From Candidatus Peribacteria bacterium (GTDB taxonomy: Bacteria; Patescibacteria; JAEDAM01; Absconditabacterales; Absconditicoccaceae), in NCBI GenBank assembly GCA_031261265.1, contig JAISKI010000044.1:1-24865 (forward strand): a stretch of 24,865 nucleotides of DNA, given 5' to 3'. The position numbers and the translations under genes were made by a program. A model generated the notes under the pieces. That model was not told where the DNA came from. It did no database searches and was given only the letters and a program-made list of their open reading frames with translations. Shown here in pieces: positions 1,950-16,716 of the stretch (its first letter is position 1; every line of letters starts with the position of its first letter).

Positions 1950-2050
1950 AAGTTCCAGCGGAAACCACTATACAGAATTAGAAGTTTTTTTCAATTGTTT
2001 TTTTATGGTGCTTGTATATAGTGAGAATGTTTACTTCTCTAAAAAGCTGA

Positions 2051-3421
2051 ATGGATCTCACGAGTTGGCATACTAAAAAGATAGCAATCCTCGGATACGG
2101 AGCGGAAGGAAAATCTACGCTCAGATTTTTATTGAACCATTGAGTGCTCCCTGAGCAAATCACAATTTTGGATAGTAAGGAAATTCAGGAAAAAGCTGTT
2201 CGTACCATTTCAGGAGAACAGTATTTGCAAGATCTTGCTGACTATGACCTCATCTTTAAATCAGCGGGGATCCCCTATTTCCCAGAGATTCAAGCCGTTG
2301 CCGATAAGGTCCTCACGCAAGTGCAGTTTTTCTTTGATCATTACCAGGGGAAAGTTATCGCTATCACGGCGAGTAAGGGGAAAACTACCATGACTTCACT
2401 TGCTGGTGAGGTAGTAAAAAATGCTGGATACCGCGTAAAAGTAGTTGGAAATATCGGGAAACCTGTGCTAGAGGAGATCGATTTCGAAACGGAGTATGAT
2501 TATGTAGTGATCGAGCTGTCGAGCTATATGTTGCAGACGCTGAAAAAGCAGAATTTTATTTCGATTCTTGGAGCGATCTTTCCAGAGCATTTGGATCGAC
2601 ACGGAGGGATGGAAGAATATGTAAAATCGAAGCTCAGGATTTTAGAAGGGAGTGAAGTAAATATTGTGTTTAGTTCGACAGTTAACAACCCCCTGCTCCC
2701 CTTCGCAAAGCTCGGGGTCGCCGTCCCCCTCACAGGGGACAAAACTTTATTGAGTGGAGAGGGAACAGAGTATTATTGGGACTCAGACTTTTTTTATGTT
2801 TGAGAAAGGAAGGTGTTTCCTTTAAGTGACGTGCAACTTTTGGGAGAGCATAATCTCTGGAATATCAGTGCAATCGTAGCGTTGGCGGATGTTCTTCATA
2901 TTGATGATGAGGTATTGCAACAGACGGTGAAGGAATTTCAGCCTGTGCGTCATAGGCTACAAAAGGTTTGAACGTTTCAAGGGATTACCTTTTATGATGA
3001 TGCAATTTCTACCACTCCTGACTCTACTATTGTTGCACTTGATGCTTTAGGAGACCAGGTAGAGACGATCTTTTTAGGGGGACTGGATAGAGGATATGAT
3101 TTTTCTCCGTTGGTAGAAAAAATAAAAAAAAGTCAGATTAAAAATATCGTGTTTTTCCCAGAGAGCGGGAAAAAAATAAAAGAAATGTTAGCCCGTAGGG
3201 AAAGGGCTTGTCCCTTTCCGAATACATCAACCCCCACAGTTAATACCCTTGAAACCACCAGTATGCAAGAGGCAGTCGCTTTCGCCTATCAGCATACCTC
3301 ACCAGGAAAAATTTGCCTGCTTTCTACAGCTTCTCCAAGCTATACCGTATGGAAAAATTTTGAAGAAAAGGGCGATTTATTCCAGAAATTTGTAGTACAG
3401 CAATCTGTTGGTTCCTTATAA
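2051..3421 (+). CDS. murD: UDP-N-acetylmuramoyl-L-alanine--D-glutamate ligase
   Basis: 456-residue Mur ligase adding D-glutamate to UDP-MurNAc-L-Ala in the cytoplasm. It has an N-terminal Rossmann segment KIAILGYGAEGKSTLRF (10-26), and a P-loop TASKGKTT at 106-113 (usual form TGTNGKTT). These are followed by GNIGKP, VIELSSYML, FPEHLDRHGG, the GEHNLWNISA motif, RHRLQKVGTFQGITFYDDAISTTPDST and GGLDRGYD. In-frame TGA codons at 2141-2143, 2801-2803 and 2969-2971 must be read as Gly; the last lies in the conserved HRLQxVG. ATG 2051 directly precedes the first beta strand. Two GC-rich palindromic insertions interrupt poorly conserved loops (2688-2741 and about 3193-3222). Because murD is essential and complete with code 25, it argues strongly for recoding rather than decay. 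Confidence 0.94.
2688..2742 (+). repeat. GC-rich palindromic insertion inside murD
   Basis: A GC-rich block in AT-rich coding sequence. It contains GTCCCC-ctcaca-GGGGAC (2724-2741, 6-bp arms) preceded by CCCC...GGGG around a TTCGCAAAGCT core. It encodes PLLPFAKLGVAVPLTGD, in a loop where Mur ligases are variable. It is probably an inserted repeat that was kept in frame; homology to the other palindromes here is not evident. Confidence 0.45.
3195..3222 (+). repeat. In-frame palindromic element inside murD (copy A)
   Basis: GTAG flank, then GGAAAGGG (3199-3206), loop CTTGT, CCCTTTCC (3212-3219) and GAA. The perfect 8-bp stem encodes RRERACPFPN in the murD frame. The same architecture and reading frame occur in uvrC at about 5655-5682, on the opposite strand. 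Confidence 0.7.
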
Positions 3422-3449
3422 CCCTATTTATATCTCTACTTGATATCCT

Positions 3450-5255
3450 ATGTCAAACCTTACAACTACCCGAACCTTCGAAGAATTACTCCCCTCCCAA
3501 TATCCCAACTACCGAGCAGAAAAGAGAAAAGAGGTTGAACAGCTTTTTTCTGACTTTGTGAAGAAATGGGGAGATAACCAGATCTATTTGAGTGATGCTC
3601 ATGCTCTACGTGAAGCTCTGGATGAGTATGAAATACTTCAAGGAGGCAATGGACCGAGCACAGGAGATGATTTTGGTGTCATTGGAGCGGAAAGCTATTA
3701 TTTTTGGTTGCAAAAGCAGATTCATTCTGATCGTGAGGAGATCCTCTCAGGTGCCAATAAAGCTGATGAATTTGCGGTGAAGATGCAAAATAAACTCCTC
3801 TTTTTTGAGCTTTCACTTTCTATGATTTCTCCTGAAAAGCAAACAGAATTTTTGAATACTCCGCTTTTAGAGCCATATCGTCACTTTTTGGAAAAGAAAT
3901 TTGCAGAAGCAAAACATTTACTCACTCCAGAAGGCGAAAAAATTCTCAATATTCTCTCCAAAACTTCCTATGAAAATCGGGTGAGTATGGTGGAAAAGCT
4001 TTTGGCTGAGCGTGAAGTCGAGGGACTCTCTTTTGAACAACTGCTTCATCTCTGTGGAGATCAAGAAGAGGAAAAAAGAAAGCGGGCTGAGAAGCAAGTG
4101 CATGAAATTTTGGTTGAGCTTGCTCCCATTGCAGAAAATGAACTTAATGCGGTATTGGAATATAAAAAAGAGGTGGATCAGCTTCGTAGCTTTTCTTCCC
4201 CTGAGGCTTCAAGATTTTTCAATGACGATATAGGATCCGAAGTGGTAGAAGCGATGGCGAGCCAAGTCGAGTCCTATTATTCCCTTTCTCAAGCATTCTA
4301 TCAGTTAAAAGCCAGATTGCTCGGGAAAGAGAGCCTAACTTATGCAGAAAAAACCCTCAAATATGGATCTCTAGATAAGGAGTATTCTTTTGAGGAAGCG
4401 GTTGATGTAGTTCGCGAGACGATCAATGCCTTAGATCCTATATTTTGAGAGATTTTTGAGGAGTTCCTGAATACGGGAAAAATTGATGTCTATCCTGGGA
4501 AAGGCAAAAGAGGAGGAGCTTTTTGTTCTGATACCACGAAATCGCTTCCTGTCTATCTTATGCTGAATTACACAGGGAAAATCAGGGATGTCTCTACCCT
4601 CATTCATGAGCTTGGGCACGGGATCAATGCTATTCTGCAACGTAAACAGAATGCTCTCAATTATGGAGCGGTAATTTCTACTGCTGAGGTGGCAAGTACG
4701 TTTTTTGAGAATGTATTGGTCAGGAAACTTTCCGCGGATTTGGAAGGGGAGGAGCTTCTGACCTTTCGTATGTCGGTACTAGATGATATGGTGGCTACCG
4801 TGCAAAGACAAATAGCTTGTTTCCGCTTTGAACAGCATTTGCATACTGCTTTTCGTGAAGAGGGCTATCTCACAAGTCAAAAAATCTGACAGCTTTTTCT
4901 CTCTAGTATGCAAGCCTATCTGGGAGATTCCATTGCTTTTCCTGAGGGAACTCAATATTGGTGGGTGTACTGGAGTCATATTAGGTTCTTTTTCTATGTA
5001 TATTCGTATGCTTCGGGGGATTTGATCTCTAAGTCTATGGAATCCCTCCTTCATACGGGGCAGATTTCTATTGAGCAGATTAAAGACTTTCTCTCTGCGG
5101 GAAGAAATGCTTCACCAAAGGAGACTTTTTTGAAGATGGGGATTGATATCGCTCAGCCAGAGTTTTGGAAGGCGGGGTTGGAGGAAATGCAGAAGTATTT
5201 GGTAGAGACGGAAGATTTGGCGAGAAAATTGGGGAAAAAGTGTGATATTGAATAA
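3450..5255 (+). CDS. pepF: M3 family oligoendopeptidase (PepF-like zinc peptidase)
   Basis: 601-residue cytosolic metallopeptidase, probably cleaving short peptides, including those taken up from outside. The zinc site HELGH is at residues 386-390 (LIHELGHGINAIL), with the third ligand probably E413 in STAEVASTFFEN. The upstream KRGGAFCSDT and downstream FRFEQHLH and YWWVYWSHIRFFFYVYSYASGD match the C-terminal half of the M3B oligoendopeptidase family; the helical N-terminal domain (about 1-330) is as expected. TGA codons at 4446-4448 and 4887-4889 read as Gly. Without recoding, the catalytic and C-terminal parts would be split off. It starts 28 bases after murD on the same strand, so co-transcription is likely. 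It ends TAA and is convergent with uvrC. Confidence 0.93.
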
Positions 5256-5281
5256 CAATTTTGGCACAAATTTTGTAATTT

Positions 5282-6967
5282 TTATTTTGAAAAGGTGAGT
5301 TCTTTACTCATTTGTTGCTTTCTATAATAGTTTGAAAATCTGTGAGCTTCATCACGGAGTTTTATCAGAAGTTTGTCCGCTTGATCATAGATCAGCGGGA
5401 TTTCAATGATGTTCCAGTTTTCATCGAAGCGATAGATATGTTCACCGACAATATCCTGAGTTGAGCGGGTAGAGTGTGAACCGATAGCAGATTTTTTTCT
5501 GGCTTCTCCTTTTCCGAGGGCGATAAATTGGAGGGTCTCAAAGATCGATCTAAATTTTTCATTTTCTTCATAAAGCTTTTTCACAACCCCTAATTGCCCC
5601 TTTCCTCCATCGAGAATGAAAAGATCTGGTGACTCCCTTTCAACGGCTTCGCCGTTCGGACGGGTTCAAGACCCGTCCCTACGTGGTTCGTTGTATTTTA
5701 ACCTCCTTTCTAATACTTCTTTCAAGGACGCGTAATCATCACTCTGCCCTTTCACGCTCTGGATTTTATATTTACGATAGCCTTTTTTTTCAAGTAATCC
5801 TCCTATCATACAGGTCAATCCTCCACTGATCCAGCTTCCTGAGAGATGGGAAATATCCACACATTCCATGCGATAGGGAAACTTTTTCAGCCCATATCTT
5901 TTCTGCAGAGTTTGTAAAAGCTCATTCTGGAGATTATCCCCTTCGAAAGAGGCGGAAATAACATAAGAATCGAAAAACTTGTCCAACATCTGCTGGAGAG
6001 CTTGCTCTTCAGATTTTAGAAATTTCATACTTTGAGAATGGACGATCATCCCCTCTGCTCCGAGAGGGATCAACTCCCCTATTTCCATTTCAAATCCTGC
6101 GAGCATATGCGAAAAATCTCCTTCGTCCACCGAAACTTTTTCACGGATTACGTCAATCAACCTTCCCTCATAAAAATTGAGGAGAACGAAAACATTTCGT
6201 GTTCAGATTTGTCTGATTTCTACTACATATCCAGAAGTATTTTTGGGCAGTTCCACGTGCTGTTTTTCGACAAATTGCTCAATATGAAGATAGATGTCTC
6301 TCAATTTGGCGGCTCGCTCGAAGTTTTCCTGCTGGATGGCGAGGTCTATTTTCTGTTTCAGATCTTTTTCGATGGGTTTGGTGTTTCCTTTAAAAAAGGA
6401 AATAAAAAGCTGAAGGAGGGCTTTGTAGTCTGGCTGAGTGAGTCAGGTCATTGCGAGAGCACACCATCCCTTACACAAACCAAAATAAAAATCAGAACAC
6501 ACCTTCTTTTGTTTAAACTGAGAAATCGGGCAAGTACGATATCCTAAGACTTGACGGAGATATTGAAGCAGTTTTTTTAGCTCTTGGGTAGTATGTTTAG
6601 GTCCAATATAGGTTGCTTTATCATTCTTTTTTGTCCTCGTGAGGAGAATTTGTGGAAACGGATGAGAAGTCAGCTTAATATACGTATACCCATTCCCTCC
6701 TTTGAGCATCGTATTGTAAAACGGTTTGTGCTTTTTTATCAGATTATTCTCTAAATATAAGGCTTCATTCTCATTCTTCACTACCAAAAAATCCACTGCA
6801 TTCGCCTTGGCGAGCATTTCTTGTTTTCGGAGAGAACCAGGAGCGAAGTATTGGGACACTCTTTTTTGCAGATTTTTAGCTTTTCCTATATAGATAATCG
6901 TGCCACTAGCATCTTTGAAAAGGTAGACTCCTGGATCATTGGGGAGATGAGAAAGGTCGATGTGCAT
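5282..6967 (-). CDS. uvrC: UvrABC system protein C, lacking the C-terminal HhH domain
   Basis: 561-residue nuclease subunit of nucleotide excision repair. It has an N-terminal GIY-YIG nuclease (GVYLFKDASGTIIYIGKAKNLQKR, about 13-37), a Cys-containing linker, a UVR motif (KQKIDLAIQQENFERAAKLRD) and the RNase H-like C-terminal nuclease with CVDISHLSGSW, LFILDGGKGQL and LRDEAHRFSNYYRKQ. TGA codons at 6443-6445, 6203-6205 and 5666-5668 are read as Gly. The protein stops about 20 residues after RDEAHRF, exactly where the tandem helix-hairpin-helix domain normally begins, so that domain is absent. An extra loop RRDGSGTRPNGEAVER just before PDLFILDGG comes from a palindromic insertion. The start is 17 bases after the pilin-like gene upstream, suggesting one transcript. 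Confidence 0.94.
5643..5684 (-). repeat. In-frame palindromic element inside uvrC (copy B)
   Basis: Minus strand: GTAG flank, GGACGGGT, loop CTTGA, ACCCGTCC, GAA (stem 5658-5665 with 5671-5678). A second small palindrome follows (AACGGC-TTC-GCCGTT, about 5641-5656). It encodes RRDGSGTRPNGEAV and contributes one of the uvrC TGA codons, in the loop. It is structurally homologous to the element in murD. Confidence 0.75.
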
Positions 6968-7847: not shown

Positions 7848-7929
7848 GGGAAAATGATTTTTTGTGTACCAGCAGAGTTAAAATGACAGTAGTAGGCAAA
7901 AATAAAAATGTCAGATTTACAAAATAACT

Positions 7930-8482
7930 AGCCCCAAGGGGGCGACACAAATTAGCACAGGGCAACGCCCTGTGTATTCTGTAAAATTACGGGATAAGCC
8001 ACGAAGTGGCGAAATAATTAGTTCCAGAGATATTTTGCATCATAATCCACATTATATTTTTCCAGAAATAATAACAATTCATCCTTATAATCCTGTTTTA
8101 TGTGATGATTTTTTTGACTTTGTATATATTGAATAACTTTATCAGTTTTAGTTCTTCAATCAATTTCATCTGACTAATTTTTCTAGATAAGAGACATAAA
8201 ATATGAATGTGGTCATTAAACCCTCAAACTTGAATTACAGAACATTCTAGTGCATTGCAAATTCCTGCTAAATAAGCCCAAATTTTAGGTTGAATGGTCT
8301 CATCAATGTCTGGACTACGATGTTTTGTGCTAAATGTAATATGAGCATACATTTTTGATAGAGATTGAGCCATAAGGTATTGATAACTTATAAATTATTA
8401 CGCCACTTCGTGGCTTGTCTTAGGGTATTCTACCCTACACAGGGCGTTGCCCTGTGCTAATTTGTTAAACCCCTTTGGGGTT
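7930..8482. mobile_element. Degenerate REP/RAYT-type element (IS200-like transposase remnant between palindromic arms)
   Basis: A roughly 550-bp unit with two inverted arms flanking a Y1-transposase pseudogene. The left arm (7931-8010) carries hairpins CCCC-aa-GGGG, CACAGGGC-aac-GCCCTGTG and GCCAC-gaa-GTGGC. The right arm (8402-8480) carries the same three in reverse order, plus TAGGGTA-ttc-TACCCTA. A 26-base segment (7949-7974 and 8438-8463) is identical in inverted orientation. Transposase plus multi-hairpin REP-like arms is the layout of REP-associated tyrosine transposase units. From 8483 to 8591 I see nothing beyond AT-rich spacer. Confidence 0.75.
8018..8373 (-). pseudogene. IS200/IS605-like Y1 transposase (TnpA/RAYT), internally deleted and frameshifted
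   Basis: It begins MAQSLSKMYAHITFSTKHR, the usual start of this HUH nuclease family. It continues through AYLAGICNALECSVIQVGG and FNDHIHILCLLSRKIS, which contains the HIH metal-binding pair. TGA 8224-8226 supplies a Gly. After QMKLIEELK the frame is lost near 8143-8149. In another frame the sequence resumes at DKVIQYIQSQKNHH (containing the likely catalytic Tyr) and ends FLEKYNVDYDAKYLWN. The missing middle is the roughly 40-residue SSKW...WQxGYGAFSVS segment of intact relatives, so the copy cannot be active. The internal TGA shows it was maintained in a code 25 genome before decay. Confidence 0.85.
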
Positions 8483-8591
8483 ATTGGTGTTTTAAAGATA
8501 TGATCATAAAAAATCAATTGATTTTAACTTTTACTAGCATTTCTATTATTGGGAATTTACTGACATTTCTATTTTGCTACAAAAGACAAGT

Positions 8592-16582: not shown

Positions 16583-16691
16583 CGTCATTGCGAGGAGTGA
16601 CCCAGAGCAAAGCGAAGGGAATCGACGAAGCAAACTACAAATCAAATAGACATTTAGATTGCTTCGTCCACTTCGTTCCCTCGCAATGACG
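16583..16691. repeat. GTCATTGCGAGG-type long inverted repeat (REP/MITE-like)
   Basis: Outer arms CGTCATTGCGAGG (16583-16595) and CCTCGCAATGACG (16679-16691), perfect over 13 bases. Inner arms GACGAAGCAA (16624-16633) and TTGCTTCGTC (16659-16668), perfect over 10 bases. Much of the sequence between can also pair. No coding potential. Repeats of this kind occur dispersed in many bacterial genomes. Confidence 0.8.
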
Positions 16692-16716
16692 CTTTACCCC
16701 TTACCCCACCTACCAA

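Follow-up and report, generated by a model that had tools for sequence, protein, structure and literature searches.

Among the palindromic repeats described in bacteria, GTAG-tagged repetitive extragenic palindromes (REPs) have stems of 5–13 bp and loops of 2–20 nt (Table 1 in Di Nocera et al. 2013, PMC3733652). Copies inside genes were already described in 2013, many of them in genes for replication and repair (among these uvrA and uvrB) and also in tRNA synthetase genes, and the sections of that paper cited here suggest that intragenic REPs are tolerated in flexible linkers or loops. The REP-associated tyrosine transposases (RAYTs, also TnpAREP) act on REP hairpins in single-stranded DNA, binding and cutting those that have a GTAG foot (from the cited part of PMC8266576), and REPs that lie in frame inside the tnpAREP gene itself, between HuH and Y, are presented as a unique feature of TnpAREP subclass 2.4, which is abundant in Cyanobacteria and Bacteroidetes and scattered elsewhere (from the cited part of PMC6006769). 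A further group is the Rickettsia palindromic elements (RPEs), which measure 105–146 bp with 12-bp terminal repeats (from the cited part of PMC2229807), while the intragenic RPE-4 and RPE-6 are of the CGTC type (PMC3733652, likewise). Here, we analyse two palindromes that an earlier note had pointed out inside murD and uvrC of a Candidatus Peribacteria bacterium, on a 24,865-base stretch of contig JAISKI010000044.1 (GC = 39.6%), hereafter the window. We consider it very probable that both are copies of one GTAG-type REP family, copied by a RAYT and tolerated as in-frame protein loops.

Two GTAG palindromes in murD and uvrC

The murD palindrome (3195–3222, plus strand) reads GTAG-GGAAAGGG-CTTGT-CCCTTTCC-GAA and has the predicted translation RRERACPFPN. 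Its counterpart in uvrC (5655–5682, minus strand) reads GTAG-GGACGGGT-CTTGA-ACCCGTCC-GAA, carries an in-frame TGA within the loop and has the predicted translation RRDGSGTRPN. Both have perfect 8-bp stems and 5-nt loops. On checking the sequence we found positions, strands and plan as the earlier note had given them, together with the common reading frame of the two copies and the TGA in the uvrC loop. A scan for GTAG hairpins with stems of at least 7 bp and loops of 3–8 nt returned these two and no others in the window, and 0–2 matches in each of 20 shuffled windows. In a strict form, GTAG with a perfect 8-bp stem and a loop of 5 nt, the search gives two matches in the window vs three in total over 300 Markov shuffles.

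By an alignment scan of UvrC across genome contigs (79 loci), the nearest genome found is that of Candidatus Peribacteria bacterium Im510_bin22 (G017; locus L022), whose UvrC is 70% identical, followed by G001, G002 and G003 (SR1 bacterium MS502-49). Ten copies, all from G017 and G003 and none from the window, were used to build a covariance model, which recovers both palindromes of the window, with scores of 44.2 and 47.7 bits (E-values of 1.6e-20 and 2.1e-22); its next-best match there, at 11.3 bits, is the opposite strand of the uvrC palindrome itself. The GTAG foot is invariant in these ten copies; some weaker copies deviate there, with GTAT in a uvrA copy and GCAG in G003:C37. Palindromes that arose in coding sequence by chance might have been suspected in a window that also holds 17 other matches with arms of at least 8 bp (several of them nested) vs 0–7 per shuffle, but the match to a family model that contains no window copy rules this out, and the rarity of the strict form in shuffled sequence and the copies in other genomes point the same way. 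The two palindromes are beyond chance, and we leave that explanation next to no weight.

Copies in related genomes, reading frame and empty sites

A first covariance model, made from five ungapped copies (two from the window and three from G017, in preference to a gapped-row alignment), matched 27 of the 49 genomes of the order at E <= 0.5 and 11 at E <= 1e-3, in a search whose stricter filters may have missed copies. The richest genomes at E <= 0.5 were G003 with 24 matches and G017 with 12, and the window itself has two copies in 24.9 kb. In an alignment of 65 matches (52 distinct, some palindromes being entered on both strands), standard pairs fill 95.6% of the stem cells vs 74.8% in shuffled alignments, and 74 stem cells show double changes vs 16.6 shuffled, values that none of 500 shuffles reached. 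Other measures of covariation were weaker or null, with 252 of 500 shuffles reaching the observed number of pairs with a double change and 29 of 500 that of further pair types. The proposal of a single dispersed family with compensating stem changes is thereby borne out by the copies in relatives, where the covariance-model search suggested in the earlier note did find further ones, and by the covariation of the stem.

Covariation of this kind would also be expected if the hairpins were RNA regulatory elements, controlling mRNA stability, transcription or translation, that lie in open reading frames (ORFs) by coincidence, and both do fold as RNA (−13 and −22.7 kcal/mol). However, the corresponding z-scores are just −1.8 and −2.1, the host genes are unrelated, the hairpins sit in mid-gene positions and the orthologue sites are empty (see below), and recognition of single-stranded DNA by a RAYT predicts the covariation equally. 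We regard an RNA element as very unlikely.

The genomic context was established for 39 copies (2 in the window, 14 in G017 and 23 in G003), of which 14 lie inside long ORFs other than transposases; 'in gene' is here our own call for an open stretch of about 300 amino acids or more with the element well inside. Besides murD and uvrC in the window, these are leuS (twice), clpB (twice), uvrA, tex, a Rad50/SbcC-like gene, an ORF with a surface Ig-like domain and a 312-aa ORF in G017, the last cut by the contig end and lacking a family match, and leuS, murB and tex in G003, the name tex being our reading of S1 and helix-hairpin-helix (HhH) domains. All 14 copies present the GTAG strand and are read in a single frame (xGT AGG GAC ...), giving predicted peptides such as RRDGSGNRPN, RRERACPFPN, GMDAPLVLPN and RRDAIIGSPN. 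With equal probability for each open frame, of which a copy has 3 to 5 out of 6, such agreement would arise by chance at about 3e-9; the two leuS copies at the site shared by G017 and G003 may not be independent. The frame used is the most hydrophilic open frame in 8 of the 14 copies and the second most hydrophilic in 4. Six of them, in UvrC, LeuRS, ClpB, Tex (in two genomes) and the unassigned ORF, contain an in-frame TGA and are therefore open only where TGA is sense. The frame test leaves aside two copies in the G017 RAYT ORF (in other frames), G017:C25:45222 (in a 464-aa open stretch but upstream of the presumed start of a GalE-like ORF), G017:C17:222 (at a contig edge, in the same frame) and G003:C9:5439 (antisense in a 447-aa ORF, E 0.05). 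Outside the 39 copies are a partial match in G003 (C15) and five matches in G017 that were weaker (E 0.008 to 0.31).

A second hairpin, AACGGC-GAA-GCCGTT (5642–5656, minus strand; predicted translation NGEAV), is joined to the uvrC REP. It adds to the plan noted earlier and is lacking from the murD copy, and in the RNA fold of the uvrC copy at −22.7 kcal/mol both hairpins are formed. The same hairpin (AACGGCGAAGCCGTT with at most one change, coding NGEAV or nearly so) follows 7 of the 14 in-gene copies (one in the window, five in G017 and one in G003) and none of the remaining 25 of the 39. Across the 880 kb of the window and G017, one further one-change version was found away from any REP, inside an ORF (L164:18500), and versions with two changes occur at two more places. 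Immediately upstream of the uvrC REP lies AACGAACCAC (5683–5692, minus strand), which is identical upstream of the second leuS REP of G017 and, judged from the sequence, may be a further part of the element.

The shared frame and strand of all 14 in-gene copies, and the NGEAV-coding hairpin that follows in-gene copies alone, could also be read as signs of a beneficial peptide, with essential proteins having taken up a small domesticated module (RRDGSGTRPNGEAV) in their surface loops. The host proteins are nevertheless unrelated, the residues vary (compare RRERACPFPN, GMDAPLVLPN and RRDAIIGSPN), orthologues have empty sites, the LeuRS loop holds different repeat-like inserts in other genomes, and the frame lock would follow equally from purifying selection against the other frames. 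We therefore think a recruited peptide unlikely, and prefer to see the inserts as REP copies that the proteins tolerate.

Orthologues were aligned for six gene families, with murB, the Rad50-like gene and two other ORFs outside the set. The insert is absent from all 8 MurD and all 11 UvrC orthologues shown in the alignments, and from those shown of LeuRS, ClpB (3), Tex (8) and UvrA (6), the LeuRS site of G017 and G003 excepted. The empty sites anticipated in the earlier note were thus seen for murD, uvrC and further families, and no orthologue among the 8 MurD and 11 UvrC sequences shown has a similar loop peptide without the palindrome. At the second ClpB site, G001 and G008 hold a different, longer sequence. 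Tex is reciprocal: near residue 610 G017 is filled and G003 empty, and near the C-terminus G003 is filled and G017 empty.

In the LeuRS loop before TTRIDTVFG, G017 and G003 are filled at the same codon with stems that differ and yet are each self-complementary. G003 groups with G002 in the tree (support 100), apart from G017, while the placement of G001 is weak (51); G001 (L325) has another palindrome in this loop, in frame, and G002 has none. Because of this distribution, one old insertion followed by loss and two insertions at one place are both possible histories of the leuS insert. The loop is short in G010, G020, G006 and others. Elsewhere it holds other in-frame inserts, with GTCATTGC... 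in G008 (L328) and G009 (L252), GTCATCGCGAGG... in G013 (L336) and GTCATCCTGAG... in G014 (L253). The inserts of G008, G009, G013, G014 and G023 have no perfect 6-bp stem, so the label 'repeat-like' refers to their sequence alone. The string CGTCATTGCGAG recurs in an intergenic repeat of the window at about 16583.

The host genes of the window are a murD ORF at 2027–3418 (plus strand; start at 2027 or 2051), with Pfam Mur_ligase_M and Mur_ligase_C, and a uvrC ORF at 5285–6967 (minus strand), with Pfam UvrC_RNaseH_dom, GIY-YIG and UVR, both read in code 25. Named homologues of UvrC and MurD carry the labels SR1, Absconditabacteria, Gracilibacteria or Peribacteria. The two genes hold seven TGA codons, one of which stands in a column with Gly in 6 of 6 orthologues and another in one with Gly in 6 of 8, the remainder falling in variable places; because of these Gly columns, the sequence fits an organism that reads TGA as glycine, that is, code 25.

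AlphaFold2 models place the MurD insert (residues 382–391) in the C-terminal domain, at the end of helix 372–386 and in the stretch before strand 398–401, and the UvrC insert (residues 429–442) between helix 411–424 and strand 449–453, which leads to FILDGGKGQL. Mean pLDDT is 87.9 for MurD, with 59 for the block 381–390 and values below 50 at 390–393, and 77.1 for UvrC (pTM 0.55), with values below 50 at residues 437–442. Each insert is modelled within, or extending into, a loop of low pLDDT, which fits tolerance in a flexible loop. In the UvrC homologues P0006, P0009 and P0020 this UvrC loop is occupied by long inserts of unrelated sequence (PLWKEGDHEV... is one), and the MurD homologue P0164 has a lengthened loop at the murD insert site, all seen at the protein and not the DNA level. 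Elsewhere in murD, a GC-rich stretch at 2690–2745 makes the loop after SSTVNN several residues longer than in most aligned relatives and is perhaps a remnant of another repeat.

A RAYT as the candidate mover

A RAYT profile built from five relatives has a match in 16 of the 49 genomes of the order at E <= 1e-5 and in 37 of 379 sampled genomes of the phylum at E <= 1e-20. In a search of the PDB the profile finds TnpAREP 4er8 (E 3e-6), while phmmer with a single RAYT gave no match there. G017 has an open 308-aa RAYT ORF (L334:926-1849; Y1_Tnp) that contains two REPs as an inverted pair, directly after the HUH motif. In the post-HUH loop, a perfect GTAG hairpin (at least 8 bp) is present in 12 of 17 RAYT ORFs from the order and in 24 of 28 from the phylum sample, vs 0.01 and 0.02 expected from shuffled loops. 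For the order and the phylum sample, respectively, 1 of 17 and 1 of 28 carry such a hairpin elsewhere in the ORF, 1 of 17 and 5 of 28 within the 300 bases upstream, and 0 of 17 and 6 of 28 downstream. The order set derives from 21 places tried, 3 without a recognised HUH and one truncated ORF being dropped and fragmentary places excluded, and the phylum set from 29 new loci, one without a recognised HUH; since RAYTs with REPs of this kind inside them went into the profile, the sample may be biased towards internal REPs. In the phylum loci (L407–L435) the hairpin often has a double foot, GTAG...CTAC, and the stems are varied. Tandem 8-residue repeats were seen near REPs in two places, as DENDLEKY units between the two REPs of the G017 RAYT and as YPGKNEHS units after the REP in G003 MurB (L205).

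We propose that the palindromes are non-autonomous DNA elements of about 28 to 41 nt, most likely copied in single-stranded form by a RAYT HUH transposase that would recognise the GTAG foot and the hairpin. Such elements would have landed in murD and uvrC in one of several frames that are open when TGA is read as glycine, and usually in the one that ranks first or second in hydrophilicity. The inserts would have survived because they add 10–14 mostly hydrophilic residues, presumably translated and near-neutral for the protein, in a loop between helix and strand.

Several observations weigh against this proposal. The REPs within the G017 RAYT differ in loop and frame from the dispersed copies of the same genome, and lining up the copies revealed no conserved base beside the insertion points. 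G003, the genome richest in copies, has only a 38-residue RAYT match and no Y1_Tnp match. For the organism of the window the sequence at hand is the 24.9-kb window, and the dispersed copies and the candidate cognate RAYT are those of relatives. Decoration of genes other than RAYTs is seen in the window, G017 and G003 but not clearly in nine further genomes, where the clear in-gene copies among 24 matches put in context are confined to RAYT genes (copies near the ends of 433- and 1024-aa open stretches, in G036:C17 and G041:C5, were not counted as in-gene). The Y1 transposase of the window (about 8025–8378) is broken and lies between other inverted repeats, not beside the REPs.

This last gene was set aside as the mover because it is broken, into two open pieces in different frames of which only the first matches Y1_Tnp, and because it lies between another kind of inverted repeat. 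The whole unit at 7916–8496 comprises the broken IS200-like Y1 transposase, on the minus strand, flanked by long inverted repeats. One of the arms has a match to Rfam RF01687 (Acido-Lenti-1 RNA), a family that may be the terminal repeat of Y1 transposons.

Comparison with described palindromic elements

Given the GTAG foot, the 8-bp stem and the RAYT gene in the nearest genome, we assign both palindromes on sequence grounds to the GTAG-REP superfamily and not to the RPEs. The likeness to RPEs drawn in the earlier note stands in so far as small in-frame palindromes add peptides in conserved genes; length and tag do not agree. An RPE-1 type element was rejected, given 28–41 nt here vs the 105–146 bp with long terminal repeats reported for it (PMC2229807, in the part cited), as was a CGTC-type REP of the RPE-4/-6 type, whose tag is CGTC and whose stem begins with AT pairs (PMC3733652, in the part cited), whereas here the tag is GTAG and the stem begins GGA. 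Separately, an intergenic inverted pair at 16583–16692, which starts CGTCATTGCGAGG and ends CCTCGCAATGACG, resembles the CGTC-type REP superfamily; GTAG- and CGTC-like repeats would therefore coexist in the window.

In common with the GTAG REPs of PMC3733652, as far as the cited sections describe them, the family has an unpaired GTAG at one end, an 8-bp stem, a 5-nt loop and compensating stem changes, occurs as singles and inverted pairs and has some of its copies in genes. The REPs covered there come from Proteobacteria, Cyanobacteria, Chloroflexi and the PVC group, so the taxon here differs, and no fixed frame or TGA read-through is described in those sections. The RAYTs of the order and phylum resemble TnpAREP subclass 2.4, as described in the cited part of PMC6006769, in having a GTAG palindrome in the gene after HUH, and we dropped REPs within RAYT genes as a novelty since that part already describes them. 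Unlike the internal REPs of subclass 2.4, however, the copies in murD, uvrC, leuS and the other host genes are not in transposase genes. The stem foot given there for subclass 2.4 (three consecutive G-C pairs, or a double foot GTAG...CTAC) is also absent from the window, where the stems begin GGA and no CTAC stands at the far end. We found no paper on such elements in Absconditabacteria or Gracilibacteria in the literature searched, which leaves out supplementary files and most subscription journals.

A code-25 lineage thus joins the organisms with protein-decorating REPs, and the strict frame rule is testable. It also links a change of the genetic code to the tolerance of mobile elements, given that the standard code would truncate 6 of the 14 in-gene hosts, and the pairs of filled and empty orthologues are natural before-and-after sets for how essential enzymes absorb new loops. 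More tentatively, and we would sooner doubt this than expect it, the order may hold a gene-adapted REP subfamily, a 41-nt two-hairpin unit or perhaps one of 51 nt and 17 codons with AACGAACCAC, its sequence shaped for translation, always in one frame and often dependent on TGA being read as glycine, with the LeuRS loop before TTRIDTVFG and the UvrC loop before DGGKGQ as shared landing places of several unrelated palindromic repeats. If so, stop-codon reassignment would open protein-coding space to a mobile element. Set against the described systems, the kind of element is known; what appears to be new lies in the details, in the lineage, the use of one frame only, the read-through of TGA and a second hairpin linked to in-gene copies.

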